64,000 nt of DNA from Pseudomonadota bacterium. GTDB lineage: Bacteria > Pseudomonadota > Gammaproteobacteria > Halothiobacillales > Halothiobacillaceae. The stretch lies in the NCBI GenBank assembly GCA_021801265.1, contig JAJYYE010000010.1:248001-312000 (forward strand), written 5' to 3'. This document shows positions 22,923 through 41,619 of the stretch, piece after piece. The notes beneath the pieces were generated by a model that was not told the origin of the DNA, searched no databases, and saw only the letters and a list, made by a program, of their open reading frames with translations. Positions within the stretch are counted from its first letter, which is position 1; each line of letters opens with the position of its first letter. The position numbers and the translations under genes are program-made.

Positions 22923-24782
22923 TTATTTCTTCCTCGCGTTTTCAATTGCACGCTTGACCGGCTGCGGCATCTGATCATCCCGCTCCCACTTCGACAGAAC
23001 GTCTTGCATCCAATCGCAATCTATCAGTGCCGATACCAATCCTGGTGCGAGCTGACTGATAGGCGCCTGGCTCACAAGCGCTGCCGCACGAGCCCCAGCA
23101 CTTGGATGAACGCGAGAGACCTCTACCAGCATCAATACTTCTTCAGCCTTTTGCCAAGTGCGGCTAGACCGCCGGAGTTCCCATGCACGAGCCATGGCAA
23201 GACCAGACTGGAAGTCACCAGCATCTCGAATCTGCTGTTTTAATGCTTCATTCGAATTCCGAGCCGCCACCAGCGCATCACGCAATGCCTTTCCTGTTAC
23301 GTTCAGATCATCTGCACCAAAATCCCTTACGGTACTATCGCGACTGAGATGCAAAATGGGCCGCATATCCATGTCCCCAAGCAGAGGCTCAAGCTGCAGC
23401 CACTCACGCGCAAACGATTTGTCGCCAAAAGGTGATGAAAGCGTGCTTTCCGGATCTTTCGATGCAACTTCCGCGTCATGAAGAATGCTGACTCTTCCTT
23501 CGCTTTCGGCCGAGACTTTTTCTGCCAATGCATTTGCTGTGGTTTCGTCACACCGCTCGAGCAAATGCCACTTGGCCAGCACTTGAACGTCCACATCAAT
23601 GTTTTGCGGCTTAGCCAAGGCCTTGCGCAGAAACACTGTATTGAGAAATCGCTTGATCAACCGTGGGTTGGCTTGAACGGTGCTCGCACTAAAAAGCAAT
23701 GGTGCAAGCCTCTCGGCCAAACCCATCAGACCGAGCAATTCGGTAGAACCCTTCGGTACCAAGGTTTCAAGAAATGCGAGATCGACTGCTTTACCGGTCC
23801 ATGTTTCCCGCAGCCGAGCCTCCACATTGACTTTAGCCTTCTCAAAATTCTCGGCATCCAGCTGGCCGCTGCGGTGCGCACGTTCTAAAAACAACAGTGC
23901 CGTGTATGCTTTCGTCTCGTTGGAGCCAAGCCTAGGTACGCGCAGCGGGACTTGAATCAACTTGTCGAAGTAGTTGGTTGCAACATCATCGTCCAAGCCT
24001 GTTCCCGCAAAATGCACTCGGACCGCACCACGGATGAACACATCATCCGCTGCAATGACGAATGCGCTTCGACGCAGAAACAGCAATAGCCTGATGGCCT
24101 CTAGCGTTGAAATAGCGGTTTTGGGGAGACACCTGTCAAGATCATCGACAAAAACCACCAGCGTGATTCCCATTTCTTCGAGCAGTTCTTCTAATGCCTC
24201 GCGGAAGGATTGGATCTCTTTAGGTAGCGAAACGGGTTTGGCTTCGTTCAAGAGGCCTTTGGTGGCTTCCGATGCATCTTTTGCGACCGCAAAACCGTCT
24301 TTAACCGATTCGTTCTTCAATGCATCGGCTCCGGCCTCTACCACTTTTCCAATCAGACCGACCGGAACTCCCGTGATCAGAGTCGCTGCAACCTCGCCGC
24401 CAAGTTGAGCCAGGCGCAGGAAATTTATCCGTTTGACAAGTGCTTTGGCCTTATCGACAAGCCCGGCGTTCTGAGCCGCGGCCTCGAGTACCGCATCTCC
24501 AACTGTCTGTAGCAGTGCCGTCCGAGCATCCTCAAATCCCTGGTAGAGCCACGGATTGAAAGTAACCACCACATATTTTGATTTCTCCGCCGCTGCTGTT
24601 TTCTCACCAACCTCCAGTTCTGACGCAACCATTCGAACAAGAGACGATTTGCCTACTCCCCAACCGCCGGAGATGCCAATCGAGATCGGCTCGCCTCCAG
24701 TATCGCGAATGAGTTCTGCACAGGCCTTTGCTACTAGGCGAAAGTTGACGTAGTCAACGGTTGTCTCATTGTCATGCCACAT
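22923..24782 (-). CDS. qatA: QatA: KAP-family P-loop ATPase of the Qat system
   Basis: The 619-residue protein has Walker A GGWGVGKS (39-46) and a Walker B in LVVFVDDLDRCLP (about 208-220), the KAP NTPase signature. KAP proteins often act at membranes, but no clear transmembrane segments stand out here apart from a hydrophobic patch at about 131-146 (VAATLITGVPVGLIGKV). ATG 24782 is chosen because AAAGGAG lies 5 bases before it; the frame is open to 24833. It is the first gene of qatABCD and begins only 93 bases after brxL on the same strand, with no terminator between. Confidence 0.92.
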   Translation of the reverse strand: MWHDNETTVDYVNFRLVAKACAELIRDTGGEPISIGISGGWGVGKSSLVRMVASELEVGEKTAAAEKSKYVVVTFNPWLYQGFEDARTALLQTVGDAVLEAAAQNAGLVDKAKALVKRINFLRLAQLGGEVAATLITGVPVGLIGKVVEAGADALKNESVKDGFAVAKDASEATKGLLNEAKPVSLPKEIQSFREALEELLEEMGITLVVFVDDLDRCLPKTAISTLEAIRLLLFLRRSAFVIAADDVFIRGAVRVHFAGTGLDDDVATNYFDKLIQVPLRVPRLGSNETKAYTALLFLERAHRSGQLDAENFEKAKVNVEARLRETWTGKAVDLAFLETLVPKGSTELLGLMGLAERLAPLLFSASTVQANPRLIKRFLNTVFLRKALAKPQNIDVDVQVLAKWHLLERCDETTANALAEKVSAESEGRVSILHDAEVASKDPESTLSSPFGDKSFAREWLQLEPLLGDMDMRPILHLSRDSTVRDFGADDLNVTGKALRDALVAARNSNEALKQQIRDAGDFQSGLAMARAWELRRSSRTWQKAEEVLMLVEVSRVHPSAGARAAALVSQAPISQLAPGLVSALIDCDWMQDVLSKWERDDQMPQPVKRAIENARKK

Positions 24783-24875
24783 AGCGGCTCCTTTGGTTTT
24801 GTGACCGACACATTGAGGGCGAAGGGCTCGCAATCATCCTGGTAAGCGAATGGTTGGCGTCTGTAGGCTGCAATC

Positions 24876-26954
24876 TCAGGCCCTGAAAATATCGACTTTA
24901 GTTTCAAGACACTTGCGCAGGCTCAAGTCGTTGGCTCCCACCTCAAACCAGCCCCCCGGCTTTTGGTAAAAATCCAGGCCTCGCCCGATTTTGATGACCC
25001 AACCGTTGTCCAGGCGGATCTCCCGATCGTGCATGTTCGGGTTGAGCTTGACCTCAAGCTCCATATCCATCTCGAGCAGGCTCTGCTTCAACTCATCCAG
25101 CTTCTCCGCAATATCTGCAAACTGCGTGTTGTCGTCGTATCCAGTGATGAGATTGATTTTCTTCACTGTACCGGCCTTCAAAACGCACTCACAAAAGCGG
25201 ACGAAATTCTGGATCTGGTGCTGGAGTCGAATGTACGGGTCTTCAATGACGACCGTCTTTGCTCCTCGCAGGTAGGGACCAATGATCGACTCATAGCTGT
25301 GGCCGATGTCACCGTACATGATCGTATAGTGCCGCTCCACCAACTCATCTGGCACAACCACGGGGGAGACGATAGGGGCCGTTGATTCGACCCTGATAGC
25401 AACCTCGGGCACTCGCGGCTCTTGAATGGCCTCTGCCGCAACGTCACGCTCAGGCGCAAGCTTTTCGTTGAGCTGTCGCCTCAACGGTTGCTGTGTGGCT
25501 GGAGCAGCCTTGGACTCAGGGCAATAGACAACAACCTCTTGTCCTTGTGTATTCAGGAATGAAAGATCGATACGCGCAAACTCATCATCGGGTTTGCGTT
25601 TATTCATCTGCTCCTTCACACGCCGACGGCACTCGACTGCGTAGGCAACATATTCTTCGAACTCTTCATCGGTTGGAGAACCTGTAGGGTGAAGAATCTT
25701 CAGGAAGGCACAGACGGTCTTCTTGATGCCTTTTTCATCACGGCCCTCAACGCTCTTTCCAAGTCGGATGCGTTTGCTGACTTCTTCGTACCGATTGGTG
25801 TGCTTGAACTGGTAGTGGAATGCTTCTGCCAAATAGTCGGTGATGAACCCGTAGCTACTGGTTAGAAATTCACTGCTGTTTTTTGGCATTTCCCAGCCAG
25901 GTATGTAGGCTGCGAATCGATCCATGATCGCCAGATCAAACTCAGCGGGCAATGGCTGGAAAAGATCATGCTCAACCGAGTTGACCACTTGACTGATGGA
26001 TAGATCGAAGTTGCCAACAAAGCTCAGGCTGGCATCAGCGATAACCTCTGCGCCACGCGAGAAGCGGCCATTCGCCATGAAATCTTTCATGATTTGAATG
26101 GTGTCTGGATCTTTGACTTTGATGCCGCCCACCTCGTCGAAAGCCACGGTATCCCAAAATCCAACCAGTCCAACCTTACGGCGTGCGTTGTTGTAGAACA
26201 GCGCCGACTTGGTCGCCTGACCACCTGAAATCAATGTGGCGTAGGGCGAAAATTCACTAAAGAAATACGACTTCCCAGTGCCGCGTGGCCCAAGCTCAAT
26301 ATAGTTGTAATTGGGTTCGACGAGGGCTGCCAAGCGCGCAATAAAGTGCATCTGCACGCGCTTCGACAACTTTGTCGGTTCCAGACCAACAGTGCGCAGA
26401 ATCGCCGCAATCCACTCGTCACGGGTGAATTGAGTACGGCCTTCACAGTAGCGGTCAAAATCAAAGCGGCTGATCTGGATAGGGCGCAGGTCTTCAATGT
26501 AAAACGCGTAGTCGTCTTCTTCGATCGCGTTATGTGCCAGCGTCACCTCAGCCCAAATGCCGCCCTCCAATAGGCGGTCGTTGTCTCGGTAGAACTTCTC
26601 GCCAATAGCGATGCGCTGTGAATTAAAGTTCTCCAGCGATGCCCAGTGACATTTTTCCTTCTCGACATACCGAACATGGACCTTGTCGATAAAGCGGTGC
26701 TTGCCTTTGGTTGCCACCTTTGACTGCGCGGCATTGGCCTCGTCAGGCTTAACATAGTTGTCTTGCAGGCTGGCGAGCACCGCCTCCATACCTGAATTCA
26801 TTTCGGCTTGATCATCACTCGCACAAAAGCGCGCAAGCAAAAACTCCAGGACGAAAGTCGGGACGTTAGTTCCCTTCTTAATTCGATGGAGTAAATCCTT
26901 GCGCAGCACCTTGCCATCAAAGGTGGCTGTCAGCTTTTGGTCGAGTTCATTCAT
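24876..26954 (-). CDS. brxL: BrxL-type AAA+ protein with C-terminal MIT_C domain
   Basis: BrxL is a BREX effector that forms MCM-like AAA+ rings on DNA. The 692 residues have the BrxL N-terminal region, Walker A GPRGTGKS (222-229), Walker B FWDTVAFDEVGG (266-277) and an arginine-finger region AIMDRFAAYIPGWEMPK (342-358). After a disordered linker (about 480-540) the C-terminus (543-692) is not the Lon-like domain of characterised BrxL proteins. It matches the MIT_C (phospholipase D-like) domain of MITD1-type proteins, with IEDPYIR (570-576) and HDREIRLDNGWVIKIGRGLD (642-661). The start lies 5 bases after pglZ. Function of the swapped domain is unknown; membrane or nucleic-acid binding is possible. 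Confidence 0.9.
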   Translation of the reverse strand: MNELDQKLTATFDGKVLRKDLLHRIKKGTNVPTFVLEFLLARFCASDDQAEMNSGMEAVLASLQDNYVKPDEANAAQSKVATKGKHRFIDKVHVRYVEKEKCHWASLENFNSQRIAIGEKFYRDNDRLLEGGIWAEVTLAHNAIEEDDYAFYIEDLRPIQISRFDFDRYCEGRTQFTRDEWIAAILRTVGLEPTKLSKRVQMHFIARLAALVEPNYNYIELGPRGTGKSYFFSEFSPYATLISGGQATKSALFYNNARRKVGLVGFWDTVAFDEVGGIKVKDPDTIQIMKDFMANGRFSRGAEVIADASLSFVGNFDLSISQVVNSVEHDLFQPLPAEFDLAIMDRFAAYIPGWEMPKNSSEFLTSSYGFITDYLAEAFHYQFKHTNRYEEVSKRIRLGKSVEGRDEKGIKKTVCAFLKILHPTGSPTDEEFEEYVAYAVECRRRVKEQMNKRKPDDEFARIDLSFLNTQGQEVVVYCPESKAAPATQQPLRRQLNEKLAPERDVAAEAIQEPRVPEVAIRVESTAPIVSPVVVPDELVERHYTIMYGDIGHSYESIIGPYLRGAKTVVIEDPYIRLQHQIQNFVRFCECVLKAGTVKKINLITGYDDNTQFADIAEKLDELKQSLLEMDMELEVKLNPNMHDREIRLDNGWVIKIGRGLDFYQKPGGWFEVGANDLSLRKCLETKVDIFRA

Positions 26955-26959
26955 AGTTT

Positions 26960-29482
26960 CTACACCGCATAGTCGGTTACCAGGTCAAGTTGGCAGTACA
27001 CCGTATAAGTCGTTGGATGAAAAGCCTTTATCTTGAATTTCCCCTCGAAATCCATTTGCATCTTGATCGTGACTTGAACCTTGTCACCTGGTTTTAAAGA
27101 CAAAGTCCCCGTTGCAGGATTCACTGCACCACCGGCCTTTGCTTCGCCCACAACTTCACCCTTGCTGTCGTGTGCCTCCAGCAAAATTTCGAACTCGTTT
27201 TCAGTTGAGAACATGTCTGCCGTTTCTACCGCAAGGTCAATCACCGGCATACGTGTGGTGATGGCTTTGGCACCATTCTTGTAGCTCATCGCCACAGATA
27301 CTTTATGCAGTGTCGGTTGATTGGAAGTTTTCAACTGCATCGTGATGACCGGCACCACGCATTCCTGCAAAGAAATGCCGCCGTGATAATAGAGCAAACC
27401 ACTTCGATAAGCGGCCAGCGAATGTGGCGCAGCGAACTTGGCAAAGTCACCGCGAATGCCCATCTTCTCTGCTGAAACGACCAGGTGATTGCCGTCGCCA
27501 GCACCATCGCCGAGCGCACACCGGTCATGAATGCCAATCCAGTTGCCAGCGGGTTTGTTGCAGACATCGCCCGCGCCAGCGTGGGTGTTCATGAAGAAGC
27601 CGTGATCGGTTGCGATCACGACCTCATGAAAGCCACGCTCTTTCAGCTTATGAATTGCGACGCGAATGCGTTTGAGCGCATTGGTAATCTCTGCAGGAGC
27701 GGTGTCGGGGTGGTTCTCAAAGTGGCTATCAATCTCCACCGCGCGCAACACCAACAAATCGGTTTCAGGCGAGAAATCGAAACGTCCGCGAACAAAGTCT
27801 TCCAGACGTCCCTCTTCAAAGCGCTGGCCGTACTTCTTCCGAAACACGTCCATGCGCTGGGTAACCGTTTCCACCACCTGGTCACCCAGCATTGGCACCA
27901 AGCTCTGTTCGTCATTCTTGATGCGAAGCTGCTGACCAGCCCCGGGCAACAAGCTGGCCATGCCTACTGGCGTGATGCTTGGTAGCTGCGCCATTGCAGC
28001 TTGCACTTCAACTTGTCCGTCTTCCGTCAACTGCCGTTCCAGCGCCACGCCCAATTCATAGCGAAGCGCATCGATCATGAAGTACGCCACCTTGTGGCCG
28101 TTCTTTTGCAGCTTGGGCGCTACGATGCGGTCGAACACATCAGCATTCGATAGCTGGCCGGCCGGTGGCCATCCGTTTTGTTCCACATGGCGAGTAAAGA
28201 TCAACTGCACCTTCTCTACCAGCTTGCCGTACTGCTTACGCACCTGCTGCTTGACCGGCGTCATGACACCTTGCGCGTCTTGCCAGTCGTAATCGCTAAC
28301 TGCTTGTTCGAACTCACGATGCAAGCGATCAGCTTCACGCAGGCTGCTCACGTAAAAGGCCAGCAGCACATCAAGATTGCGTGCGTTGTCTGAGAGTTGC
28401 CGCTCCATGTCATCGCAGGTTTGCAGCAGTTCTGTGGCCGATCGAATCAAATCCCACTGGGCACGGCTTTCGCCTTTGCCTGTCCACACCGATTGCTGAT
28501 GGCGCTCCGATATACTCCGCACCCGGTCGATGTCATCACGCAAGATGCCTTCGATCGCCCGGCTCAAAAACGTGCGTTCCTCAAACGGGAAGGTGTCGCG
28601 ATCACCCAAATCAGACCAGCCACCAAATTGGCTGACCAGATTAAGGTCCTTCTCAATTTCTTCCGCACGGTCGATATAGACACTCTGCGTGCGGCGATCA
28701 TTGCGCAGCAGGTCGCACAGGTATTCAATCAAGGGCTTCGCTTGCGTTTCTGCGCGCGGTACATCGCTCAAACTGGCAGGCAATGCGCCAGGCAGATCAA
28801 ACACAAACTCGCTGAACAAGACAAAGCGCCAGAGCTCATTGGCCACCGAGTCCCATGTCTTGCCCCGGGTCTTCAGTGTCAGGCCCATGCTGTTGCGAAG
28901 CAAATCACGCGCCTCTGTCACCCAGCTATCGCTGCCTTTCAATGCGGTCTGCTGCGCATCGTTTGGCACAAGCAGCGCAAACAGAATGTCGCGGGCGGAC
29001 TCGACTGCCAGTAGCGCACGCAAGTTGGGCCAGCCCAAGCCGCCGCCAATCGCATCCACCACTGCAAAGCTCGGTGATGCGTCCTGCTCAAAGATGGCCC
29101 GGATGGCCGTCGTGTGATCTGGCTTCGCCTTAAGGCACAGGCTCTCGAAGCTGTCGCCATCGCCTTCGGGGAAAATGGCTCCTGCTGCGGCAATAGGCGC
29201 GAACGGGTCAGCCTGGCGCTCCTCATCGTTCTGCGGTGCCTTAGTAGGCACATAGACCAAGATGCCAGAGAGCTGTCGATCGATCACATCACGCAAGCCT
29301 TGCATTGCCGCAACCCGACTCTCGATGCTGCTCTTTGAAGCATCCACAACCAGCAGCTTTTCGTCGGCCAAACCGTTGCAGACATCGTGGTAGTGCCCGG
29401 CAGGGTCATACACCACCAGGCTGCCTGTCTTTTGTAACCGGGGTCTGAGTATCTTGTTCTGGATGAAGTCGGCAATGCTCAC
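26960..29482 (-). CDS. pglZ: BREX-1 alkaline-phosphatase-like protein PglZ
   Basis: PglZ is a core BREX component that binds PglX and has a metal-dependent phosphatase or nuclease fold. In the 840-residue product the N-terminal region (1-460) is helical. The alkaline-phosphatase domain has KVAYFMIDALRYE (464-476) and VVIATDHGFFMN (621-632), which carry metal ligands, and the protein ends in a beta-rich domain (about 700-840). Its start overlaps the stop of the DUF262 gene by 4 bases, so it is translated from the same message. Confidence 0.95.
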   Translation of the reverse strand: MSIADFIQNKILRPRLQKTGSLVVYDPAGHYHDVCNGLADEKLLVVDASKSSIESRVAAMQGLRDVIDRQLSGILVYVPTKAPQNDEERQADPFAPIAAAGAIFPEGDGDSFESLCLKAKPDHTTAIRAIFEQDASPSFAVVDAIGGGLGWPNLRALLAVESARDILFALLVPNDAQQTALKGSDSWVTEARDLLRNSMGLTLKTRGKTWDSVANELWRFVLFSEFVFDLPGALPASLSDVPRAETQAKPLIEYLCDLLRNDRRTQSVYIDRAEEIEKDLNLVSQFGGWSDLGDRDTFPFEERTFLSRAIEGILRDDIDRVRSISERHQQSVWTGKGESRAQWDLIRSATELLQTCDDMERQLSDNARNLDVLLAFYVSSLREADRLHREFEQAVSDYDWQDAQGVMTPVKQQVRKQYGKLVEKVQLIFTRHVEQNGWPPAGQLSNADVFDRIVAPKLQKNGHKVAYFMIDALRYELGVALERQLTEDGQVEVQAAMAQLPSITPVGMASLLPGAGQQLRIKNDEQSLVPMLGDQVVETVTQRMDVFRKKYGQRFEEGRLEDFVRGRFDFSPETDLLVLRAVEIDSHFENHPDTAPAEITNALKRIRVAIHKLKERGFHEVVIATDHGFFMNTHAGAGDVCNKPAGNWIGIHDRCALGDGAGDGNHLVVSAEKMGIRGDFAKFAAPHSLAAYRSGLLYYHGGISLQECVVPVITMQLKTSNQPTLHKVSVAMSYKNGAKAITTRMPVIDLAVETADMFSTENEFEILLEAHDSKGEVVGEAKAGGAVNPATGTLSLKPGDKVQVTIKMQMDFEGKFKIKAFHPTTYTVYCQLDLVTDYAV

Positions 29483-31341
29483 AGCGCCACCCCAGCACTT
29501 TCTTGCTTCTCAGCGAGATGTGTAGCCCACAAAGTCTCCAGCGCGGGACTATTCCCTTCAGCAAGCGCATTCATTGCCGTAACGACTAGATTGGCTCGAT
29601 CTCGCAGGAATTCGTTGAAATCGGCCTCTAGCTTCTGTTTGAACGCATCGCCATCTAAGCCCGAGTAGTGTGCTTTTGAAAGCAGGTCGTATGAAATCAA
29701 GTGGGACTTCAAACGCTCGCACACTACTTTTTCATCGGCCCACTGCACACGCTCTTCGAGATACTCCAGCGGATCCTTACGGCCAATTATGCGGTTAGTC
29801 TTCCAGGTGATCAGCGCGCAGTTCAGCGCCCGGTAACTCGGAATTCCAGCTTCTGAGAGCAATGAATCCGGGAATACATGGTGGTACTCGCGCTTTTGAA
29901 TACTCTCGTAGGTTGCAGTCTTGTGGTCTGCGAAGTCGATCGCACCAAGATAGGTCGTTACCGCCAAGATCGCGCGAGCTTCGATACCCGCCGCCTTCGG
30001 CCAGCCAGCAGCCATCAGCGAATCCACATCGGCCAAAGGAAATTCAGAACGGTTCAGTGCCGGCACCGTCGTCAGCTCGGCATCAGTAAAACCAGGGTTC
30101 TTCAACACAGCTTTGATGGCCTTGAAGTCTGCAAACGCACGCGACGCTGCCGTGTTTTCGTAACGATCAGTGAAGAAGGCAGACCACAGGTAGCGGCGTA
30201 AAAGTTTCTCCGCTTTGGCTAGAAAATCACCGTAGTCGGGAATCAACTCATACGCAGCGGCAATCACCGCTAAAACGGCATTCGTCGGCAAACGCGCCTC
30301 GTCAAATACACGCTGGCTGTCCAGAAACGACGCCATGCGTTCAAGCCCACGTTCCAACTTCGGCCAGTTGGCAAGCAACTGCTTTTTGTCCATCTCAATC
30401 ATGCCGCGCGTATTGGGCAACTTTTCCTGCAGTAGCGCCGAGGTAGACAAAATCAGATCAGAGACATTGCCGTAGCGTCTGGCCGTCGGACACTTCTCAT
30501 TCAGGCTGGCTTCGAGCGCGTGGAGCGACTTCTCTGCCACGCTTTCAACCTCTGCCACAATGATGTCGTACAGAGATAATGGCTTGCTGTTGGTGTTCAT
30601 GTTGATGAACACCTGCAAAGCCACATCCTTGCTGGTATCCGCTGGCAACGAAAGGTAGGGAAGGTTGAAATGTGTCACCCGCTCTCGCAGCGCAGTGATG
30701 TCCGCCTTGATCTTGTCGCGCGTGGCGGTATAAGTCTTGTACTTAGATAGCGCATCCGGGTCTGTATCCGCCGGCTCCAATGGTTTGGTTGCATCGTTCA
30801 ACCAAAGGTCGATTTCTGTCGAAATGTCACCAGGACGAAGCAAATTCACAGGGAGCAAACCACGCTTGAAACACTGCGCAGGTTCCTCCGCCCAACGCGG
30901 CATCCGCAGTTGGTGCTTGTTGACCCAGCGAGGAATGCAGCGGATTTCTACTTCCGAGCCCGACTTGTTTTCGCCACGATCAAACTGCGGCAGGTAGACG
31001 AAGAACGTCTCCCATTCGTAGTTGTTATGCATCGAACGCCAAAACGCAGTCAGACGTTGCTGGCCATCTAATAGATGCTGAGTGACGGTGCCTGGCTGAG
31101 CAGGATCTGAGCTTGCGATGTAGCGCGATTCAAATTTTTCTTGCCCTGCGACTTCAAGGGCCAAAGTCACACCCACCGGCAGGTTGTTGATGATGGTGTT
31201 CAGAAAGCTAGCGATTCGACCACGATCCCACGCTTCAAAGCGTTGAAAACGAGGCAATTTCACCATGCCTTGCTGAATGTTCTGAAACCAGACGCCCAGA
31301 GTTCTGTCCTGTGCCTTGCTTGATTGTTGCATGATGCTCAT
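29479..31341 (-). CDS. GmrSD/BrxU-like DUF262-DUF1524 nuclease within the BREX operon
   Basis: The 620-residue protein has the DUF262 ParB-like nucleotide-binding motif LLDGQQRLT (90-98) at its N-terminus. Near its C-terminus (about 484-525) is a DUF1524 His-Asn nuclease motif (YHHVFP followed by LITWKTNR). This is the fused layout of GmrSD, a type IV restriction enzyme against glucosylated DNA, and of BrxU, the BREX-associated enzyme. It overlaps pglX2 and pglZ by 4 bases on each side, so it is expressed as a BREX component. Modified-DNA cleavage is the likely role, by family knowledge. In the described E. fergusonii locus brxU precedes pglX, so the position here differs. Confidence 0.88.
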   Translation of the reverse strand: MSIMQQSSKAQDRTLGVWFQNIQQGMVKLPRFQRFEAWDRGRIASFLNTIINNLPVGVTLALEVAGQEKFESRYIASSDPAQPGTVTQHLLDGQQRLTAFWRSMHNNYEWETFFVYLPQFDRGENKSGSEVEIRCIPRWVNKHQLRMPRWAEEPAQCFKRGLLPVNLLRPGDISTEIDLWLNDATKPLEPADTDPDALSKYKTYTATRDKIKADITALRERVTHFNLPYLSLPADTSKDVALQVFINMNTNSKPLSLYDIIVAEVESVAEKSLHALEASLNEKCPTARRYGNVSDLILSTSALLQEKLPNTRGMIEMDKKQLLANWPKLERGLERMASFLDSQRVFDEARLPTNAVLAVIAAAYELIPDYGDFLAKAEKLLRRYLWSAFFTDRYENTAASRAFADFKAIKAVLKNPGFTDAELTTVPALNRSEFPLADVDSLMAAGWPKAAGIEARAILAVTTYLGAIDFADHKTATYESIQKREYHHVFPDSLLSEAGIPSYRALNCALITWKTNRIIGRKDPLEYLEERVQWADEKVVCERLKSHLISYDLLSKAHYSGLDGDAFKQKLEADFNEFLRDRANLVVTAMNALAEGNSPALETLWATHLAEKQESAGVAL

Positions 31342-33254
31342 TCGGCTGCTCCCGCTTTCTTTTTGGTGCGTGTTTTCTTAGGCGCTGCCTCTGGCTCAAC
31401 GTATAGATCTTCCAACCCATGTGTGATGGCGAGGGACTTGTCGGTCTTGCACTTCTCGCGCACACGATCAGGCCAGTAAGCCATTGCGAGGTGCGCCCAG
31501 TCGTAGTCGCCTTTTTCCAGCTTGGTCCAGGTGTCTTTCAAGACCTTTTGCCAGGGCTTGTGGCGGAACAGCGGCCAGAGGGGCGCGGCGGTGATTTGCA
31601 CACCGTCGTCGTGGTTGGGCTGGTAGTTTGGTGCAATCTTGAGCAAGGTGTCGCGCAGGTCGGTCAGCTCTTGCTCGAAGGTTTGCAACGTTTCGTACTG
31701 CTTTTCCTCGTCACGAGAGCGGCCGCTGCCCTTCATACGCAACTCTGCACATTCACGGCTGACTTGCGTCAGTTTCCCGTTGGGGCCGTCGAGAAAATCA
31801 TTCACCGCTGTGAACAGCGTTTGATTATTCAAGGATGGGTAATAGACCCAGAGCTTGTAGCTACCGGAGGCGGTGGACAGCGGCCAATAGATGGGCGCTT
31901 TGCGGCGACTCTTGGAATAGCGTTGCAGGTGGAAGGCGAAGAAGTCCCGCTGCAGCCAGCGGCGCACGTTATCTGGAACGGATACATCAACCCGGTTCAA
32001 CACTTCCTCAACTAAGTAAGCAAGATCATGGGGGTGCCCTATGTCATGTACCAAAATGCCAGAATTGGCATGGAAAGGCTCAGCACCATCCTGCAACATG
32101 CCGGGGCTCTTAGCGGGCAGCGGATCGAAGGGTTCTGGGAATGGCGGCTGCGGACGCTCCCCAGTCGCTAATCGCAAATCGAAACGACCAAACACTACTC
32201 CAACGGCCCAAGAGAGTATTGTTGAAAAATCATCAATCGGCGTCTCATCAATTTCGCCTTCGTCTTCAGCCTTCTCGTCAAGCTCATCGATCTCGCCGAC
32301 TACTTGTGGCAAAGAAGCAGCAGCCTTATCAACATCTGAAAAACCATAGAGGTCAAATACGATTTCATCTATTCTTTTCAGTACGTCAGAAAGGCTTTCC
32401 GATATTGCTTGCCTATCAAAACCATCGAGCCGGTGACGCAATTGCAATGGAAGAAGGAACGCTTTGGAACACTCATCTACAGATGATTCGATATATCTCG
32501 TTCTCCAGCCCAGTTTGGCTAACTCGCCAAGCCTTTTCTTGGTTGATTCATCAAGCGACGGAAAGGGAACTCGCTGGATTAGCCCCACTTCGTACTGAGC
32601 ACCGACTACCCGACCGGCGAGCATCATTACGAATGCGTCGAAGGCCGTGCTATTAAAAATGGCCAGGCTGGCAAGCTTTTCATCAGGAATGGGGAACGCC
32701 ATTTTCCCTGCAACGCTAAAAATGCATCCTTCTGGTACTGCCTGTGAAGAGAACCTATAGCCTCTCAGCGGCCAAGTGACTCCCGGCAAAGTGAAATAAT
32801 TTTTCTCGGTTTCACCAAGCATCCAGACATTTGAACGAATTCCACCTCTCTCGTTAAGGTTGTTCTTAATTTCCACACCATTATTTTTCCAACGGACGCG
32901 ACAGAATATTTCTTGATAAAACGGTTTGGACGCCCCTCCTTTGGCATAAGGCCGCCAAGCAGAAATATGATCAAGCACCTCCCACTGAAGTCTTACAAAC
33001 CTGAAATCATCAGCGGTTGCAAGACCTTGCTTAACAGCTCTCTGTCCGCTTTCAAACGGGCCAAATTTTGCAAAACATCTGCGCACATCCTGACTAGCCC
33101 AATAGGCAAAAGGACTTCCTGGCAACTCCGAAAATACATCTGAATCGACGGAATACATGTTGCTCTTGCCCGAGCCAGACCGAAACGCAGTGGCCGCCGC
33201 AGCTAAGTCCTCTTTTTTGTCAGTAGCAGCGATAGATCGAATGAAAATAGTCAT
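31338..33254 (-). CDS. pglX2: PglX C-terminal half (target recognition part) as a separate protein
   Basis: The 638-residue product begins MTIFIRSIAATDKKEDLAAA and contains the target-recognition and C-terminal spacer regions seen downstream of the methyltransferase core in full-length PglX. Examples are FSVAGKMAFPIPDEKLASLA (about 183-202) and VVGAQYEVGLIQRVPFP. A helical stretch with TLQTFEQELTDLRDTLLKIA lies near 535-555, and the tail is basic (KKTRTKKKAGAAE). No methyltransferase motif is present. It overlaps the upstream gene by 4 bases (ATGA), so reading is coupled. It probably acts only with the N-terminal protein. Confidence 0.85.
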   Translation of the reverse strand: MTIFIRSIAATDKKEDLAAAATAFRSGSGKSNMYSVDSDVFSELPGSPFAYWASQDVRRCFAKFGPFESGQRAVKQGLATADDFRFVRLQWEVLDHISAWRPYAKGGASKPFYQEIFCRVRWKNNGVEIKNNLNERGGIRSNVWMLGETEKNYFTLPGVTWPLRGYRFSSQAVPEGCIFSVAGKMAFPIPDEKLASLAIFNSTAFDAFVMMLAGRVVGAQYEVGLIQRVPFPSLDESTKKRLGELAKLGWRTRYIESSVDECSKAFLLPLQLRHRLDGFDRQAISESLSDVLKRIDEIVFDLYGFSDVDKAAASLPQVVGEIDELDEKAEDEGEIDETPIDDFSTILSWAVGVVFGRFDLRLATGERPQPPFPEPFDPLPAKSPGMLQDGAEPFHANSGILVHDIGHPHDLAYLVEEVLNRVDVSVPDNVRRWLQRDFFAFHLQRYSKSRRKAPIYWPLSTASGSYKLWVYYPSLNNQTLFTAVNDFLDGPNGKLTQVSRECAELRMKGSGRSRDEEKQYETLQTFEQELTDLRDTLLKIAPNYQPNHDDGVQITAAPLWPLFRHKPWQKVLKDTWTKLEKGDYDWAHLAMAYWPDRVREKCKTDKSLAITHGLEDLYVEPEAAPKKTRTKKKAGAAE

Positions 33255-35152
33255 GCCTGCTTCCTAAACGTATATGCCATTGCCTCAACCATCGCGTCAT
33301 CCATCACACCAAGCCCCAAGTCAGCAAGGATTTCGGGCTCAGCAATGCCGAGCACAATTTCTTCCCGCCACTTTTGAAAACTGGTGAGGAAAAAGCAGGT
33401 GCGCGAGGTGATGGCACCAATGCGCCCGCCGCCACGCAGTAGCTGAAGGCCGCGCTCTACCATGATGGCCATAAGATCGTTCTTGCTGCGTGGATAGGCT
33501 TTGGCGAGTTGATCTTTGGTGTTTGCAGCCAATGCTCCAAATGGTGGGTTCATCACCACGACATCGAACACCTCACGACACAGATCGATGAGCCGAAGCC
33601 CTTGCAAAGCATCCTGTGCAAATAGTCGCCCTTGGTAGGTGGACTTTGCGGCCTGGGCGAATTCAGTGAGTGCCGTGCGCATACGAGCCTCCGCCTGCTG
33701 CCAGCTCTCCTGCTCTTGTGCGGCAAACAGGCCAGTGCCTTTGCCCACATAGACCTGGCGGATCAAGTTCGGCAACTCGCGCTCGACCTGGAGCAGCACG
33801 CCCATTTCCGGCAGACCTTTGAGCAATTGCAGCGTCTTTTCGAATAGCTCGCCGTCGCGCTGGTCGAGGTTGGCGGCAAACTGCTGGCGCAGTTCTCGCT
33901 CCGCCGGTGGCGCGACGGCCGCAACCACATGCCCCTTACCAATGCATGGGCGATCTTTGGCTTTCACGCTGGCATCGTGCCAGGCACGCTGTGCCCGCAG
34001 CCACAGGGCTAAGGTGGCAATCTGCGCGGCGCGCGGATCGATGTCTACGCCGTAGATGTTGTGTTCGATGATCAGGCGTGGCACATCGCGCGCAAAGGTC
34101 GCTTCGTCTTCGTAGGTCTGACTCAGTGGCTTGAGCGCAGCTTGGGGCTGAGTGGAATCATCCAAGGAGCCAGGGCCATGTTGCTGTTCCCATGCCCATG
34201 CCTCAAGGTAAATCTCGACAAACAGATCAAATGCATACAGGCCGAAGTGCATAGAACCGCAGGCCGGGTCCAGCAGCTTCAGGGTGCGCGGGTCGCGTAG
34301 TTTGATGGCCGCTTGCGGTTGCTCATCGGGCTTGACCAGCAAGTATTGGCAGCGCTCGCGCAGATCCGTTTGCCCGCCAGTGGCGTTAAACCAGAGACGC
34401 CCCAGCGTGTTATCGACCAAAAACTCCACCACATAGCGCGGCGTGAAGAACTGGTTTCGCACGGCAAGCTCGCGGCTATTGCGTGGAGCCTGGCTGGCAT
34501 CGCGCATGGCTTTGCGTTCTTCTTTGGAGTTGAAGTATTGGTAGATCCAGCCGATGGTTTCGTCTGCGCCCCAAAGCGACTCAATCTCAAAGTGGTTGAG
34601 CTCATCCAATAGCGCGCGCAGGGCGGTCTCGCGCGGGAACAGCAAGCCGTTTGCGGCGTAACGATAGAACAGGGCGGGTAGCTCTTGTGCGAGTTCATCA
34701 AATACGCTGAATAGATAAATCTGGTACGCCTGGCCGGTTTCACCCAGGGCAGTACCAGCGATCTTGCTGTAGAGCTGGTAGCCACGCGATTGGTAGCCTT
34801 TGCTGACCGACTCGATCAGCTGCCCACGCGCTTCCATCATCAACAGTGCTGCCAAACGGTTGAGCACGGTAAAAGCTTGCTCGCGCACCATACGGTCGAG
34901 CACCGCGATGCGGTGATCGGTGTCGTCTACTTCTGCGCCCAGGTAGTGCGCCAGGGTTTGGCGCAGCACTTCGGCCGTGTGACGCTGGCGGTCGTCCAGA
35001 TGGGTGAGTCGGGCCATGGGCGTGACTTCACCGGTCTTGGGGTCTAGGCCATAGGTTTGCTGAAGCTGGATACTGAACTCATCGGACAGCAAGCTGCGAC
35101 AACTATTAACCAGCTTTTGCAGGCGACCTCGTGTGGATTGATCGAAGGCCAT
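33251..35152 (-). CDS. pglX1: PglX N-terminal half: BREX-1 N6-adenine methyltransferase core
   Basis: This is the host-protecting methyltransferase of BREX. The 633 residues include the helical N-domain, a FFTPRYVVEFLVD motif (235-247), SAM-binding motif I DPACGSMHFGLYAFD (295-309) and the catalytic NPPFG (535-539) of N6-adenine enzymes. The protein stops shortly after the core (AMAYTFRKQA), where normal PglX of about 1200 residues would run into the recognition domain; that part is the next gene. The two together have 1271 residues. The clean coding sequence on both sides of the ATGA junction argues for a true gene split, not a recent frameshift, but sequencing error cannot be excluded. Confidence 0.9.
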   Translation of the reverse strand: MAFDQSTRGRLQKLVNSCRSLLSDEFSIQLQQTYGLDPKTGEVTPMARLTHLDDRQRHTAEVLRQTLAHYLGAEVDDTDHRIAVLDRMVREQAFTVLNRLAALLMMEARGQLIESVSKGYQSRGYQLYSKIAGTALGETGQAYQIYLFSVFDELAQELPALFYRYAANGLLFPRETALRALLDELNHFEIESLWGADETIGWIYQYFNSKEERKAMRDASQAPRNSRELAVRNQFFTPRYVVEFLVDNTLGRLWFNATGGQTDLRERCQYLLVKPDEQPQAAIKLRDPRTLKLLDPACGSMHFGLYAFDLFVEIYLEAWAWEQQHGPGSLDDSTQPQAALKPLSQTYEDEATFARDVPRLIIEHNIYGVDIDPRAAQIATLALWLRAQRAWHDASVKAKDRPCIGKGHVVAAVAPPAERELRQQFAANLDQRDGELFEKTLQLLKGLPEMGVLLQVERELPNLIRQVYVGKGTGLFAAQEQESWQQAEARMRTALTEFAQAAKSTYQGRLFAQDALQGLRLIDLCREVFDVVVMNPPFGALAANTKDQLAKAYPRSKNDLMAIMVERGLQLLRGGGRIGAITSRTCFFLTSFQKWREEIVLGIAEPEILADLGLGVMDDAMVEAMAYTFRKQA

Positions 35153-35157
35153 ACTGA

Positions 35158-38100
35158 TTATTCCCCCGCGTCCTGCAGTTCGAGGTTGACGGCAAAAGCG
35201 TGGGCATATTTCAGTTCGCCACGCAGCTGTTGCAGTTGCGTGATCAGCGCATCCAGGTCGTCCATCGTGGTGATCTTGGTACGCGCCTTGATGCTGCGTG
35301 CGACGGGCTGCTTGATCTCTGGTGTCTCACCGGGCGGCACTTCAGCCTGAGCACGTTCCAGTTCTTCCTTGATGCGCTGCTGTCCCAAGCGCTCAATGCG
35401 GTGCTTGAGCGATTGCACCTGCGACTGCAGTTCGTAGTCCTTGTTGAGCATGGTGGTGAGGCCCGCCAGATCGGGTGCTACATCCACAATCAGGCGCTCA
35501 AGGTTGCCCAGTAGTTCGGTTTGCTCTTGCTGGGTAAGTTTGATCCACTCCGGTACGCGCTTGAGGTCAACCTCGGCCTCTTTGATGCGTGTTTTGAGCA
35601 GGTCTTGCATCGCAATCACGGTATCGCGAATGCGGGCGCGAATGGTGGTGAGGCTGGTGCTGAAATCGGCCGCAAAACGATAGAAGTCGGCCTGCTGCAG
35701 GCGCTCCTCGATGAGACTGAGTGCCTCAGCCAACTCTTCTTTCAGCGTGGCCAGCAAGGCCACGTTCGGCAGGTTGGCAATGGCCGTACAGTGCTGGCGC
35801 AGATCGCGCAGCGTTTGCTCCAGGCCTTGCTCCAGCTTGAGTTTGACTTCGGCGGCCCATTTGAGACTTTCGAACAGCTCGGACTGCTCGTTGCCCAAGC
35901 GGCGCGGCGCATCCGAAGCATCGGTGAGCAGCACGTCGTTAATCTCGTGCGTGAGGTTTTGCAGTCGATCTACACCTGGCAGGTTGAGGCCGCGCAGCTT
36001 CTCTGTGAGCGGGCCGTATTGGTGCTGCAGTTGCGGAAAGAGCTTGGTAGTGACCTTGCTGATGTCGTCTTCCAACGGCACGACGGTGTCGCCAGTGAGT
36101 TCGGTCAACCGAGTTGCAGCGCGCGCCAGTACGTCGTTGGACGGACGATCGCCACCACGCAACGAAATACCGATGCTCTTGAAGGTGTTGTTGGTCTTGA
36201 TGGCGTCGATGGCTTGCTGGCCGTTGACGGTGACTTCGCGTCCCGCCACCTTGAGCTTGATCTCACCCGCCAGCAGCATGGCTGCCACCAGATAGCGCAG
36301 GGTGTCTGCCGACCAACCAAAGGGCGCATCGGCAAAGACGTCGGTCAGGCGTTTACCATCCACGGTGCCGTTGCGGTCAATGTAGTCACGGATGCTCACC
36401 ATGGCCAAGTGGTCGGTGCGAATGCTGTGTCGTCCACTTTGGGTTTGCACAAGGTTCAGCGGATCGAGCGCGCTGGTGATGCCCGACATATTGCCGACCC
36501 GCAGGAATTTTTCAGCAAGTTCGGTTCCGGCGCGCACTGGCGCTTCTGCGTAGCGATCGAAAACTTGTTCAGCGACTTCGCTCAGGTGCTTGCGTGCGGC
36601 ATCCAGCAATTCGGTCGCCAGCGTATCGACCGCAACAACCTGGCCTCGAAAGATGAACGAGCCTTGCAACAGGCTGCGCTGAATCTGCGCCCGCAGTTTG
36701 GTGCTGAGGTGTTCAGCTCGGTCGGCCTGGCCGTTGCAGTATTCGCGGATTTCTTGATCCGGATCGCTGCGGTAGCGGTTGGCGATTTCTCGGCAGCGGT
36801 GGATGTCGGCCGTCAGTTCGTCCATTTCCGGCGTGGTGCGGCCGACCAGGTAGATGTTGAACTTGGACGAGTTGTGACGCGACTCATCAGTGAGCCGGGT
36901 ACGTGCGTTGTCGATTTCTTTGGGATCAACCAGCTCCACAATGGTTTGGATCTGGTTGCGCTCACCCGCCAACGATGCGGGTACGTTGCCTGCCGATTGC
37001 GCCTTGAGGCCGGTGGATACGGCGTAGGAGCCGTGCAATTGGGTGGCGGGCAATGGTGCGTAGACGCTGGTCAATGCTTCGTTAACGATGCGACGCAACT
37101 CAACGCCGCGCAGTGCGACTTGACTGCGTTCCTGCTCAATGTCGTTGAGCTTTTCACTGAAGAAACAAAGGTTGCCATCTTGTTCGCCAAAAGGAACGAT
37201 GGGGTCGTTGATCAGGTCTTCGACTGCCTTGGCCACGACGTCTGCTTGTGATGCCCCAGAGATACTGGCGTGCATCAGGCTGGTGACGTTTTGGCGGGTG
37301 ATGGGCAGGTTGCCCAGGATTTGCAGAACAGCGACTGTCTTGGCGATGTTTTGATGCAACTCGGAATGCGAGAAGCGAATCTTGGTGGCTTTCTCTACCG
37401 ATGCGTGCAACGAGGCGAAGGCGCGTTTGATGTCTTTGTCCAGCGCATCAAACAGCGTGACCGTGGTGGCGAGCCAGCCAACGGCTTGTTCTGCCACAGC
37501 GGGTTTGCCTTCAGAGCCGTCGATCAGAATGTCTTGCACCACCTTGATCGCCGAGCGCAGGCCGATGCCACCCGTAGACTTGGCCAGTGCGCCGAGCAAG
37601 TGCAGCAGAATGTCGAAGTGCGCAGGCAGGAACGGGTAGAGATCGACAAAGGTCTTGCGATCGAAATCGACGCCATAGACGCGCGCATCGACAAGCTTGG
37701 TGTTCTGGCGCAGCTGCTGGCCATACTGATCAAACAACCCGCCCAATTCAGCTTCCGCTGCTGACGACTTGCCCAACAGCCGCGTGTAGCAAATTTCCTT
37801 GATGTCGTTGGATTCAAGGGCGATTTGAATCGGAAAGCGGTCATTGAGCTTGAAGAGCTCTGGCGAGTTGAGGGCAGCCTTCGCGTCATCAGCCGTGAGC
37901 GTTTGCTGCGCCGTACCAACAATCCACACCTTGCCGTCGCCGATGTTTTTCAGGTTTTTCGCCAGACCATCGAGGTTCAAAATCAGGTTGGGCCGAGGGC
38001 CTACGTACTGACCTACTTCATCGATGATGAAGATGATGTATTCCTTGCCCGATGCCTCGCGGGCAATCTCCAGCATTTCCCGCACACGGTCGTTTTCGAA

Positions 38101-38811
38101 GACGACGATTTCACTGGATTCAGTCGTGAACGAGGTGGGCGTCTTGAAAAGCGTGGGGTACAACTTATGAGCGATCTCAGGAATTAGGCTGTCGACCACC
38201 AACTCGTCATTGCGGTAGTTGTTCCAGTCTTCACCGCCAGCAGCTTCTTTGAATGCGTCCAGGAATTCGTTGTAGCGGCCTTCCTTCTTGAGCCTGCGTT
38301 CCAGCGCGGCGACTTTGAGATTGCGCGAATAGCCCGCCCATTGCAGCACCTTATAGAACAGTACCGTCGACACATCTTCCATGGTCGCACCGGCGACCTG
38401 TTCGCTGGCCAGGTCCAACATCAGCACTGCAGCCGGAAAGCGCTTGGCTACGTTCGACAACAATGATTTGGTTTGCTGGCGCTTGAGACGATCTTGAAGG
38501 TGCTGAATGAATGGGACGCCATCAATGGTGATGCGATCGTCAAATGCCAAGCCCAGATACTTGGTGAACGAGCTCTTACCGGAACCATAGAAGCCTGACA
38601 CCCAGACGCCGACTTCATTTTCGCCACCAATATCCATGGCGGCTTCCATTTTGAGCAGGAGATTCTCGAACTGCTGGTCGATGCTGTCGGTGACCACATA
38701 TTCGGAGATTTCCGATTTCAGGCGCGCCTCTTGTGACACGCCATAGGTGATGACCTTTTCAATGCTGCGATTGATGTTCTTGCTGGGGTCGAAGAGTTTT
38801 TTGATCGTCAT
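35158..38811 (-). CDS. brxC: BREX ATPase BrxC
   Basis: The 1217-residue core BREX protein is a large P-loop ATPase needed for methylation and restriction. It starts MTIKKLFDPSKNINRSIEKV, with Walker A GFYGSGKS (73-80) and a Walker B-like IIFIIDEVGQYVG (near 260). Long helical regions occupy the C-terminal third. ATG 38811 is chosen because GAGG lies 7 bases upstream; an ATG at 38823 overlaps that site. It follows brxB after 15 bases. Confidence 0.95.
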   Translation of the reverse strand: MTIKKLFDPSKNINRSIEKVITYGVSQEARLKSEISEYVVTDSIDQQFENLLLKMEAAMDIGGENEVGVWVSGFYGSGKSSFTKYLGLAFDDRITIDGVPFIQHLQDRLKRQQTKSLLSNVAKRFPAAVLMLDLASEQVAGATMEDVSTVLFYKVLQWAGYSRNLKVAALERRLKKEGRYNEFLDAFKEAAGGEDWNNYRNDELVVDSLIPEIAHKLYPTLFKTPTSFTTESSEIVVFENDRVREMLEIAREASGKEYIIFIIDEVGQYVGPRPNLILNLDGLAKNLKNIGDGKVWIVGTAQQTLTADDAKAALNSPELFKLNDRFPIQIALESNDIKEICYTRLLGKSSAAEAELGGLFDQYGQQLRQNTKLVDARVYGVDFDRKTFVDLYPFLPAHFDILLHLLGALAKSTGGIGLRSAIKVVQDILIDGSEGKPAVAEQAVGWLATTVTLFDALDKDIKRAFASLHASVEKATKIRFSHSELHQNIAKTVAVLQILGNLPITRQNVTSLMHASISGASQADVVAKAVEDLINDPIVPFGEQDGNLCFFSEKLNDIEQERSQVALRGVELRRIVNEALTSVYAPLPATQLHGSYAVSTGLKAQSAGNVPASLAGERNQIQTIVELVDPKEIDNARTRLTDESRHNSSKFNIYLVGRTTPEMDELTADIHRCREIANRYRSDPDQEIREYCNGQADRAEHLSTKLRAQIQRSLLQGSFIFRGQVVAVDTLATELLDAARKHLSEVAEQVFDRYAEAPVRAGTELAEKFLRVGNMSGITSALDPLNLVQTQSGRHSIRTDHLAMVSIRDYIDRNGTVDGKRLTDVFADAPFGWSADTLRYLVAAMLLAGEIKLKVAGREVTVNGQQAIDAIKTNNTFKSIGISLRGGDRPSNDVLARAATRLTELTGDTVVPLEDDISKVTTKLFPQLQHQYGPLTEKLRGLNLPGVDRLQNLTHEINDVLLTDASDAPRRLGNEQSELFESLKWAAEVKLKLEQGLEQTLRDLRQHCTAIANLPNVALLATLKEELAEALSLIEERLQQADFYRFAADFSTSLTTIRARIRDTVIAMQDLLKTRIKEAEVDLKRVPEWIKLTQQEQTELLGNLERLIVDVAPDLAGLTTMLNKDYELQSQVQSLKHRIERLGQQRIKEELERAQAEVPPGETPEIKQPVARSIKARTKITTMDDLDALITQLQQLRGELKYAHAFAVNLELQDAGE

Positions 38812-38826
38812 GTTTTGCCTCAATGA

Positions 38827-39399
38827 TTAGCCGCCGACGTGGACAGAGCGGTAGTTGCCATCGTCGGGGTAGAACCCCAGGAATTTGAGTCGGGTCTTGC
38901 CGGTGCGCACGCCAGGGTAGAAGAACACTGTGGGCACATGGAACTTGCCTTGCAGCTTGCCTTCGATGACACCGATGCGTGTGTAGGGATGCAGCGCCTC
39001 AAGGTCGGTGACCAGCAAAATGGCCTTAGGCTTGCCCTCAAGCTCGGCCAGCTTGGCTTCGATGCGTGCCTGCAACGCGCCATTACTGATGGCATTAGCG
39101 AGCGACGCATTGGTCTTGTCCCATGCCAACGGCGCTTTCTGATCGGCTGCGAGCCAGATCTTGCGAAGCGGTGCCTTCTCGATAATGTCTGCAACATGCT
39201 CGGCGATCGAAAAGGTTTCGACTTCCCAGCCTTCGTTGCGCAGTCGGTGCATCCACGCGGGTGTTTCGCGCTTCACATTGAGAATCTGATTCGGTGGGAA
39301 AACCAAGTAGAAAATAGGCTCGAAGCTGGCATGGCCGAACTCGCGCCCCTGCTTGATTCGCTCCATCAACTCATTGAAATCAGCTTTGAGCGATGACAT
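38827..39399 (-). CDS. brxB: BREX protein BrxB (DUF1788)
   Basis: The 190-residue protein is a typical BrxB: FNELMERIKQGREFGHASFE, PIFYLVFPPNQILNV and the C-terminal FYPGVRTGKTRLKFLGFYPD are family motifs. Its biochemical role is not settled, though it is required for BREX methylation and defence. Its start overlaps brxA by 20 bases. Confidence 0.95.
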   Translation of the reverse strand: MSSLKADFNELMERIKQGREFGHASFEPIFYLVFPPNQILNVKRETPAWMHRLRNEGWEVETFSIAEHVADIIEKAPLRKIWLAADQKAPLAWDKTNASLANAISNGALQARIEAKLAELEGKPKAILLVTDLEALHPYTRIGVIEGKLQGKFHVPTVFFYPGVRTGKTRLKFLGFYPDDGNYRSVHVGG

Positions 39400-40165
39400 C
39401 GATCAGTTCCTCCATGCTTTTATAGGTCCACCCGATATGCACGACATCGGAGGCGGCCTGGAAAATGAGCAGGCCTTGTAATGACAAACGTTTTAGTTGG
39501 TCTCGGACGTCGGCACGTTCCAGCCCGAAGAGATCCCAGTCGGAGCTTGAAACAATTTGGTTGTCGCCAAGACCGCTGAACTTCAAGTCGTAGGCCAAGT
39601 AGGCGGCGACCCTTGGCAATATGCGATACGCAGCAATCGAGCGCTGGTTGCGGCCCGTGGTAGTTAGCAACCCATAGTCGGCGCAGCAGCCCATCAAATA
39701 CGATGAGATGCGCTTGATCGTGGTCTCAGACCATGGCTTTTGTGTTTTTCCTTCGCGCACGCTGTTGGCAACAAAGGTGCGTGCGTCTTCCAGTTGAAGG
39801 TCATTTCGCCCGGCTGAATAGCGCGCCCAGTAAACCTCTCGGACAAAATCCGCCAACACAAGATTGGCGCGCGCCGTATAGATAAAGAGTAGCTGATTGA
39901 GCTCGGCGGCCGTGAAGCGATCAACCAGGGACTTGAGGCGCGCGGGAATGTACGGGTCGCGCATATAGCGTGGGGCAAAGCACTCAGCAACAATATTGCG
40001 TAGGCGCCTTGCCGTTACCAAAGGAAAACGACCCGATGCCAGCGAGGCCTCATAGAGCTGTGACGCACTCATGCCAGGCTGATAAATCTGTAGCAGTTGC
40101 CTTGTTTCTTCTAGGAGACCCAGCCCTGCTTGTAGTTGGGTGGTGTAGTAGCGCTGCTGACTCAC
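39380..40165 (-). CDS. brxA: BREX protein BrxA (DUF1819)
   Basis: The 261-residue BrxA has YYTTQLQAGLGLLEETRQLL at its N-terminus and a helical body with RYMRDPYIPARLKSLVDRFT. E. coli-type BrxA binds DNA and is needed for restriction. It overlaps the preceding BrxE-like gene by 4 bases. Confidence 0.95.
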   Translation of the reverse strand: MSQQRYYTTQLQAGLGLLEETRQLLQIYQPGMSASQLYEASLASGRFPLVTARRLRNIVAECFAPRYMRDPYIPARLKSLVDRFTAAELNQLLFIYTARANLVLADFVREVYWARYSAGRNDLQLEDARTFVANSVREGKTQKPWSETTIKRISSYLMGCCADYGLLTTTGRNQRSIAAYRILPRVAAYLAYDLKFSGLGDNQIVSSSDWDLFGLERADVRDQLKRLSLQGLLIFQAASDVVHIGWTYKSMEELIDVIAQS

Positions 40166-40665
40166 TCAACCTCCCGAACGTAGGGGAACGTCTGAATTCC
40201 GGAGGTGAAGGCGGCACAATAAAAGCCCGCAGCACGTTTCAGGTCGGCGTTGATGTCTTGACTCATCTGCCCCAGCGAAACGGGACCCGGCGACGCGGAT
40301 TCTGCTTTTCCCGCCAATTCAGCCAGGCGCGCCAGCGCCAACTCACGATTCGCCAATCTGTCTTGCACTGTTTGAACAAACGTGGCGTCGTTAAGCGCAT
40401 CGGCCGATGCTTGCTCTAGTCCGATGGGCAAGCGAAAGAGGTGGTAGATACGACCAACACCAATGGCCTCGTCATGGACCTTTGCCGCCGCTGCCGTTGC
40501 CCCTTGGTATTGGGCCAGGAACAAAGAGCGATTGAATATCGGTGCCAAAAAAGCATCGGCTGTAGAACTGAAGAACTCGCAGCCCCACCAATTAGCCTGG
40601 CCCTTCTCTCCGAGGTAGCCAATCAGAACCCGGAGCTCTGCGATTGTTGTTGCGATAGTGTCCAT
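40162..40665 (-). CDS. BrxE-like BREX accessory protein
   Basis: The 167-residue protein shows LRVLIGYLGEKGQANWWGCEF at about 11-30 and a later block AKVHDEAIGVGRIYHLFRLP, the pattern I associate with the BrxE family, best known from other BREX types. ATG 40665 is preferred to a TTG at 40689 because AGGA lies 8 bases before it. It sits between brxR and brxA with a 4-base overlap at brxA. Function is unknown. Confidence 0.7.
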   Translation of the reverse strand: MDTIATTIAELRVLIGYLGEKGQANWWGCEFFSSTADAFLAPIFNRSLFLAQYQGATAAAAKVHDEAIGVGRIYHLFRLPIGLEQASADALNDATFVQTVQDRLANRELALARLAELAGKAESASPGPVSLGQMSQDINADLKRAAGFYCAAFTSGIQTFPYVREVE

Positions 40666-40710
40666 CAAAAGTCCTAAATCTTTTTTCAACTGTGCGGCTG
40701 GGCAGCACGG

Positions 40711-41619
40711 TTAATAATTTGTCTTCGCCTCGTCCGGATGCGGCTCTCTGTATCCTGGTGCTAACAATGCGTTCTTGACGCCATACAGTGCTAAGTAATC
40801 CTTCAGCCACAGTCTGTATTCAGGGCCTTGCAAACTGTGGTCTGGCGAGGCATCTACACTCCAGCGCAGAAGCATGTAGCCAGCGACGGCCGCACGGACG
40901 CACATACGAATCGAACCGTCTTTCATCCCGTAGTCCATTCGAATGATCTCGGGACGGCTCAAGCGCGGGTGCGGTACCAAGTCCAACTCCACGATCCGGG
41001 TCCATTGGATGTCGTTGTCTGGGCGCTCGTTGGCCTTGGGTTCCTCATCAACCAAGGTCGGTGCTTCGATACGGGTGACGACAAAGTCTCGGAACTCGCC
41101 GCTCTTGCGATCAAAGGCCCGGACGTGCCAGCGCAGGCCGGTGTCGACCAAGGCGAAGGGAACGATCACCCGTTCGGACTGGCCGCTGCTCATCGAGTGG
41201 TAGCGAATGGCTACCGGGCGCTTGGCGTGAATCGCGCGACAGATAGGTGCAAGAACATCCATGCGGGGACTGCTCAGTACAGTAGGTGGCTCGCAGGGAA
41301 TCATGGGCTGCGATTCGCCATTCACACCATCACCAAACCCAAGCGAAAGTGCTGACAGAACTCGCTGTGGTGCATGGTCGAACAAGGGCGCGAACGTTTT
41401 GCCAATCCGGTAGATCTTGTTGCTGCCGTCGAACTCGATGTTCTTTGACGCTACTTCTCGATACAGCGCCAAGTCCCGAGTAGCTGCCGCAGGTGCTATA
41501 CCGAAGCGGTTTGCCAAGTCAGGCCGCCCAACTTCACCTAGGAAGTACAGACGGAAGTCGATATACGACAAACGCTCGCGTTGGGCATGACTCAAACTTT
41601 CAACACGCTGAGGGTGCAT
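40711..41619 (-). CDS. brxR: BREX regulator BrxR (winged helix plus WYL domain)
   Basis: BrxR-type proteins repress BREX operons and respond to a ligand through the WYL domain. The 302-residue product has an N-terminal winged helix (LGEVGRPDLANRFGIAPAAA, about 27-46), a WYL domain (RPVAIRYHSMSSGQSERVI, about 135-153, then WHVRAFDRKSGEFRDF) and a C-terminal WCX-like domain. ATG 41619 has GGAG 9 bases before it; the frame is open to 41640. It is the first gene of the operon, just after the promoter described at 41702-41744. Confidence 0.93.
   Translation of the reverse strand: MHPQRVESLSHAQRERLSYIDFRLYFLGEVGRPDLANRFGIAPAAATRDLALYREVASKNIEFDGSNKIYRIGKTFAPLFDHAPQRVLSALSLGFGDGVNGESQPMIPCEPPTVLSSPRMDVLAPICRAIHAKRPVAIRYHSMSSGQSERVIVPFALVDTGLRWHVRAFDRKSGEFRDFVVTRIEAPTLVDEEPKANERPDNDIQWTRIVELDLVPHPRLSRPEIIRMDYGMKDGSIRMCVRAAVAGYMLLRWSVDASPDHSLQGPEYRLWLKDYLALYGVKNALLAPGYREPHPDEAKTNY

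Follow-up and report, generated by a model that had tools for sequence, protein, structure and literature searches.

In the 64,000-nt stretch of Halothiobacillaceae DNA analysed here (the window), the pglX gene of a BREX operon consists of two minus-strand open reading frames, pglX-N (35152-33251, 633 aa) and pglX-C (33254-31338, 638 aa). The first ends in TGA and the second begins with ATG, the two sharing an ATGA at 33251-33254. We consider it very probable that, in this phage-defence operon of Type 1-like BREX, they encode the site-specific adenine methyltransferase PglX (BrxX) as a natural two-subunit enzyme, co-translated, assembled as a heterodimer and endowed with an exchangeable specificity part. 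A sequence-only reading had described pglX as such a gene pair joined by the ATGA overlap, with the catalytic and recognition parts as separate proteins. The gene pair is confirmed, and the separation of the two parts is supported.

The operon reads brxE-brxA-brxB-brxC-pglX-N-pglX-C-GmrSD-like-pglZ-brxL, all on the minus strand: brxE (40162-40689; 162 bits, cut-off 40), brxA (39380-40165), brxB (38827-39399), brxC (35158-38823; 873.5 bits, cut-off 400), the two pglX genes, a GmrSD-like (DUF262) gene (29479-31341) in the slot between pglX-C and pglZ with 4-nt overlaps on both sides, pglZ (26960-29482), and brxL (24876-26954). The Type 1 BREX gene set, brxA, brxB, brxC, pglX (as two genes), pglZ, and brxL, is present in one operon. 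The Type 6 marker brxE is also present, but the Type 6 replacement of brxL by brxD and brxHI is not seen: brxL is in place, and none of the ORFs scanned between 20797 and 41640 matched brxD or brxHI. The coexistence of the Type 6 marker brxE with the Type 1 marker brxL recurs in the fetched loci, where BrxE is found in 76 of 99 and BrxL in 81 of 99, and the Type 1/6 boundary is therefore blurred in this clade. The pglX/pglZ interval is an accessory-gene hotspot (loci L021-L110), spanning about 50 nt in many operons and holding one gene of 1.6-2 kb in many others; filled slots are dominated by two DUF262/GmrSD-like families (15 and 12 loci). In the related operon of Pseudomonas kielensis the GmrSD-like gene is missing. 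Additionally, the anti-phage genes QatA, QatB, and QatC lie directly downstream of brxL (20797-24833), QatA being common only to L050 among the fetched loci.

The pair in the window has the gamma-class methyltransferase motifs of PglX/BrxX, the methyltransferase-TRD-spacer-C-terminal domain order and the structural matches of the family, and departs from it in not being a single polypeptide. PglX-N, the catalytic subunit, carries the N-terminal helical domain, DPACGS (residues 295-300) and NPPF (535-538), while PglX-C, the specificity subunit, opens with the final methyltransferase strand and helix and continues with the TRD (~45-235), spacer helices (~236-345) and a BREX-type C-terminal domain. 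In the NCBIfam BREX_1_MTaseX profile (1210 positions) PglX-N covers positions 1-610 and PglX-C 636-1209. Against NF033452 (Type 1 BREX PglX) the two score 470.7 and 261.8 bits, each below the 500-bit cut-off set for the whole protein, so that annotation misses or mislabels split pglX genes; one PglX-C, on a Thioflavicoccus plasmid, is annotated as "hypothetical protein". The PADLOC-DB PglX models PDLC02526 (640 aa) and PDLC02532 (682 aa) match the halves nearly end to end (577 and 802 bits). The sequences of both halves are already known to database builders as PglX; members of each have been collected in these models, both merely labelled PglX, with no two-subunit arrangement named.

The N half was scanned against genome contigs (the 80 best genome hits) and viral contigs, giving 92 loci, supplemented by plasmid and whole-genome hits. 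The recurrence of the split in relatives, which the sequence-only reading had proposed as a check, was found: 57 of the 90 classifiable relatives are split at the homologous residue (a few of them damaged) and 33 are fused. The alignment puts the split between ...AAYVLEKQ and M(T/S)xFLRLL, a position occupied in fused proteins by a short loop whose length varies. ATGA accounts for 35 of the 48 junctions measured, and most of the rest are GTGA, TAATG or TGATG. Of the 48 split junctions measured, 43 have a Shine-Dalgarno tetramer in the final 24 nt of pglX-N; the corresponding figures are 23% for control windows and 8 of 33 for the homologous positions in fused genes. In the window the tetramer is an AGGA inside pglX-N (33262-33265, minus strand), 7 nt before the pglX-C start. 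Glutamate codons in this region are GAG in 39 of 43 cases, against 27.5 expected. A search of 398 sampled genomes of the phylum with the N half at E 1e-80 returned only the window's own genome.

In several relatives the halves are separated by other genes: an OLD-like ATPase/TOPRIM gene with 4-nt overlaps at both ends in Tepidimonas (L030), UvrD-like (UvrD_C_2) and DUF2290 genes in Thioflavicoccus (L014), and PIN genes in L036 and L048. The Tepidimonas unit is itself found twice, as two identical PglX-N/OLD-like/PglX-C units (L030 and L031) about 22 kb apart on one Tepidimonas fonticaldi contig (NZ_VJOO01000006.1), either a tandem duplication or an assembly artefact. A Comamonadaceae bin (L042, 4408-8213) has one pglX-N followed by two full-length pglX-C in tandem, joined by GTGA; the two share 57% identity and are almost the same at their ends but differ in their TRDs, which makes dual specificity possible, although an assembly artefact might also account for the case, its source being a metagenome bin. 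Furthermore, three fused genes (L015, L076 and L084, the last with an inserted linker at the junction and scoring 710.5 bits against NF033452) fall inside the split class of the cassette tree, and re-fusion therefore probably occurs. Intervening genes, tandem copies and re-fusion are the usual signature of two proteins working as one.

These observations bear on two alternative explanations. A sequencing error or a recent frameshift mutation might have broken a normal pglX in this genome, a draft in 12 contigs, and many relatives are indeed fused. We reject this possibility, whose probability is negligible: the split is not an error because it recurs at the homologous residue in the relatives, with ATGA at most junctions. 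Dozens of independent isolates show it at the same residue with conserved signals, the second frame has no coding extension upstream (a stop codon lies only three codons before its ATG), and the PADLOC-DB models end and begin at the split. The split pglX is thus conserved across dozens of other bacteria and due neither to chance nor to sequencing error. Relatives with one continuous frame, which the sequence-only reading had counted against itself, do exist, yet they belong to a different cassette class and are not evidence of error. Alternatively, programmed -1 frameshifting at the ATGA might join both frames, the active enzyme still being a single PglX. The overlap does set the second frame at -1 and fused homologues exist, but unrelated genes stand between the halves in several relatives, the junction frame varies (ATGA, TAATG, TGATG), and the conserved Shine-Dalgarno site and start codon are not needed for a frameshift. 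By eye, no slippery heptamer was seen near the stop in the window. The intervening genes and the junction data thus disfavour frameshifting, which we regard as very improbable.

The halves were also compared with the fused Type 1 BREX proteins of known structure, E. coli BrxX (9EWZ) and Salmonella PglX (8C45/8Q56), which share the same domains in the same order and the same operon partners, but form one chain of 1205-1225 aa where the window has two proteins. Sequence and structure alignments of the family cover residues ~70-1223 of these entries. An alignment of a profile of fused relatives to the PDB sequences places the junction loop at BrxX ~609-616. The AlphaFold model of PglX-C (pLDDT 84, pTM 0.82) aligns from its residue 1 with BrxX 616 and PglX 617, and continues through ~1202-1223 (Z 24-25 over ~500 residues). 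The published methyltransferase/TRD border of BrxX is at 650/651, with a hinge at 638-675 (PMC11842806), and the Salmonella PglX hinge is at 654-659 (PMC11341690). The cut maps to BrxX ~611/616, in a hairpin loop of the methyltransferase; it thus lies about 35 residues ahead of that border, rather than exactly at it as had been proposed from the sequence. The end of the methyltransferase domain, its last strand and helix, therefore belongs to PglX-C, which should complete the catalytic domain. In the single-chain model of PglX-N the final 100 residues are of low quality, as might be expected if a partner were missing, but a shallow alignment could explain it too.

The comparison with P. kielensis (L028) locates an exchange in the window. 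The operons are 86-91% identical at the DNA level except over 33534-31921, an exchanged specificity cassette (minus strand) delimited by the DNA alignment, by changepoints and by a dip in GC3. This cassette begins at NPPF in pglX-N, crosses the gene junction and ends near residue 441 of pglX-C. In pairs of opposite state with N cores at least 85% identical, identity is 93, 94 and 89% over the N core, drops to 15-40% between residue 540 and roughly residue 430 of the second half, then returns to 77 and 93%. Edges of exchange were taken as sharp changes of identity between pairs, which are not independent. The left edge lies at residue 539, just after NPPF, in fused/fused and split/fused pairs, while in split/split pairs its median is residue 7 of PglX-C, and 89 of the 129 pairs have it no more than ~10 residues from the junction; the right edge lies at ~441-449 in the former and at 345 in the latter. 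By Mantel tests, the N tail follows the N core in split systems (Spearman 0.34, p 0.005) and the TRD does not (0.03, p 0.36), whereas in fused systems the N tail does not track the N core (Spearman -0.06). Explaining the split/fused state takes 21 changes on the N-core tree (12 or more of them forced, on supported branches) versus 3 on the cassette tree. Neither further PglX-C copies elsewhere in the window's own genome nor, within 24500-42000, inverted or direct repeats of at least 25 bases able to drive shuffling near pglX were found.

Specificity exchange does not need the split, since fused PglX swap a larger cassette, whereas among split systems the exchange begins at the gene junction and the specificity part moves alone. 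The separate exchange of the specificity part proposed by the sequence-only reading consequently holds among split systems, where the edge at the junction, the N tail that follows the core when the TRD does not, and the tandem PglX-C all favour it; its view of the split as what permits exchange does not hold, given the larger cassettes of fused forms and a swap in the window that crosses the split. Since fused forms exchange specificity too, any advantage conferred by the split is hypothetical. A neutral fission, fixed in one cassette lineage and hitch-hiking with it, with no role in exchange, which would proceed equally in fused and split forms, is a credible, if somewhat improbable, scenario. 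In its favour, whether a system is split or fused goes with the cassette tree rather than the N-core tree, fused forms exchange as freely, and the window's own swap crosses the split; on the other hand, the shift of the left edge from NPPF to the gene junction, the conserved N tail that tracks the core and the existence of a tandem second PglX-C speak against it. The split/split pattern could also stem in part from a stronger constraint on the N tail rather than from recombination at the junction. As we read these patterns, the split may have arisen in one cassette lineage, would travel with the cassette, and would there have confined later specificity exchange to the second gene. A specificity loop of the Salmonella methyltransferase domain has been mapped to residues 591-600 (PMC11341690). 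This loop would fall within the N tail, a segment exchanged by fused cassettes and showing little variation in split ones.

A separate specificity polypeptide is known from HsdM/HsdS of Type I restriction-modification and from the RM/S arrangement of the Type IIB enzymes BsaXI and BcgI (PMC9159934, PMC11997821). The TRD and spacer of PglX-C have a fold like that of HsdS (Z ~10), HsdS chains aligning only over ~60-305 of the PglX-C model, that is, one TRD plus spacer. In contrast to HsdS, with its two TRDs joined by conserved helices, PglX-C has a single TRD, the end of a methyltransferase fold and a BREX-specific C-terminal domain, gave no HsdS family match, and derives from PglX. No split or two-subunit PglX/BrxX was found in the literature searched, where PglX is one chain, although the original BREX paper (EMBO J 2015) may contain an earlier mention.

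With regard to mechanism, PglX-N would supply the N-terminal helical domain and, with the SAM-binding and NPPF motifs, almost the entire methyltransferase, and PglX-C the last methyltransferase strand and helix, followed by the TRD, spacer helices and BREX-specific C-terminal domain. A ribosome finishing PglX-N probably restarts on the overlapping ATGA, aided by the Shine-Dalgarno site inside pglX-N, so that the subunits would be made together. They would then come together, most likely in a heterodimer with a methyltransferase beta-hairpin completed where the two chains meet, and the pair would behave like a single BrxX, marking self DNA and licensing exclusion by BREX. The end of PglX-N varies little among split systems and for that reason might serve there as a generic docking surface. 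The specificity-setting stretch (~residues 1-345 of PglX-C) could thus be replaced, or PglX-C duplicated, with the catalytic gene untouched. A bolder version, which we put forward tentatively and regard as rather doubtful, is that split BREX is a true M/S system, in which strand complementation within the methyltransferase fold would let one generic catalytic subunit work with several specificity subunits that replace one another (or, in some hosts, with two at a time), so that a single operon would have several recognition sites.

PglX sets BREX specificity and, to our knowledge, has been known and engineered only as a single chain. If a natural two-subunit PglX with swappable specificity is borne out, re-targeting BREX and its methylation would amount to co-expressing another second protein, and the split would offer a natural cut point for dissecting which part of PglX touches the other BREX components.
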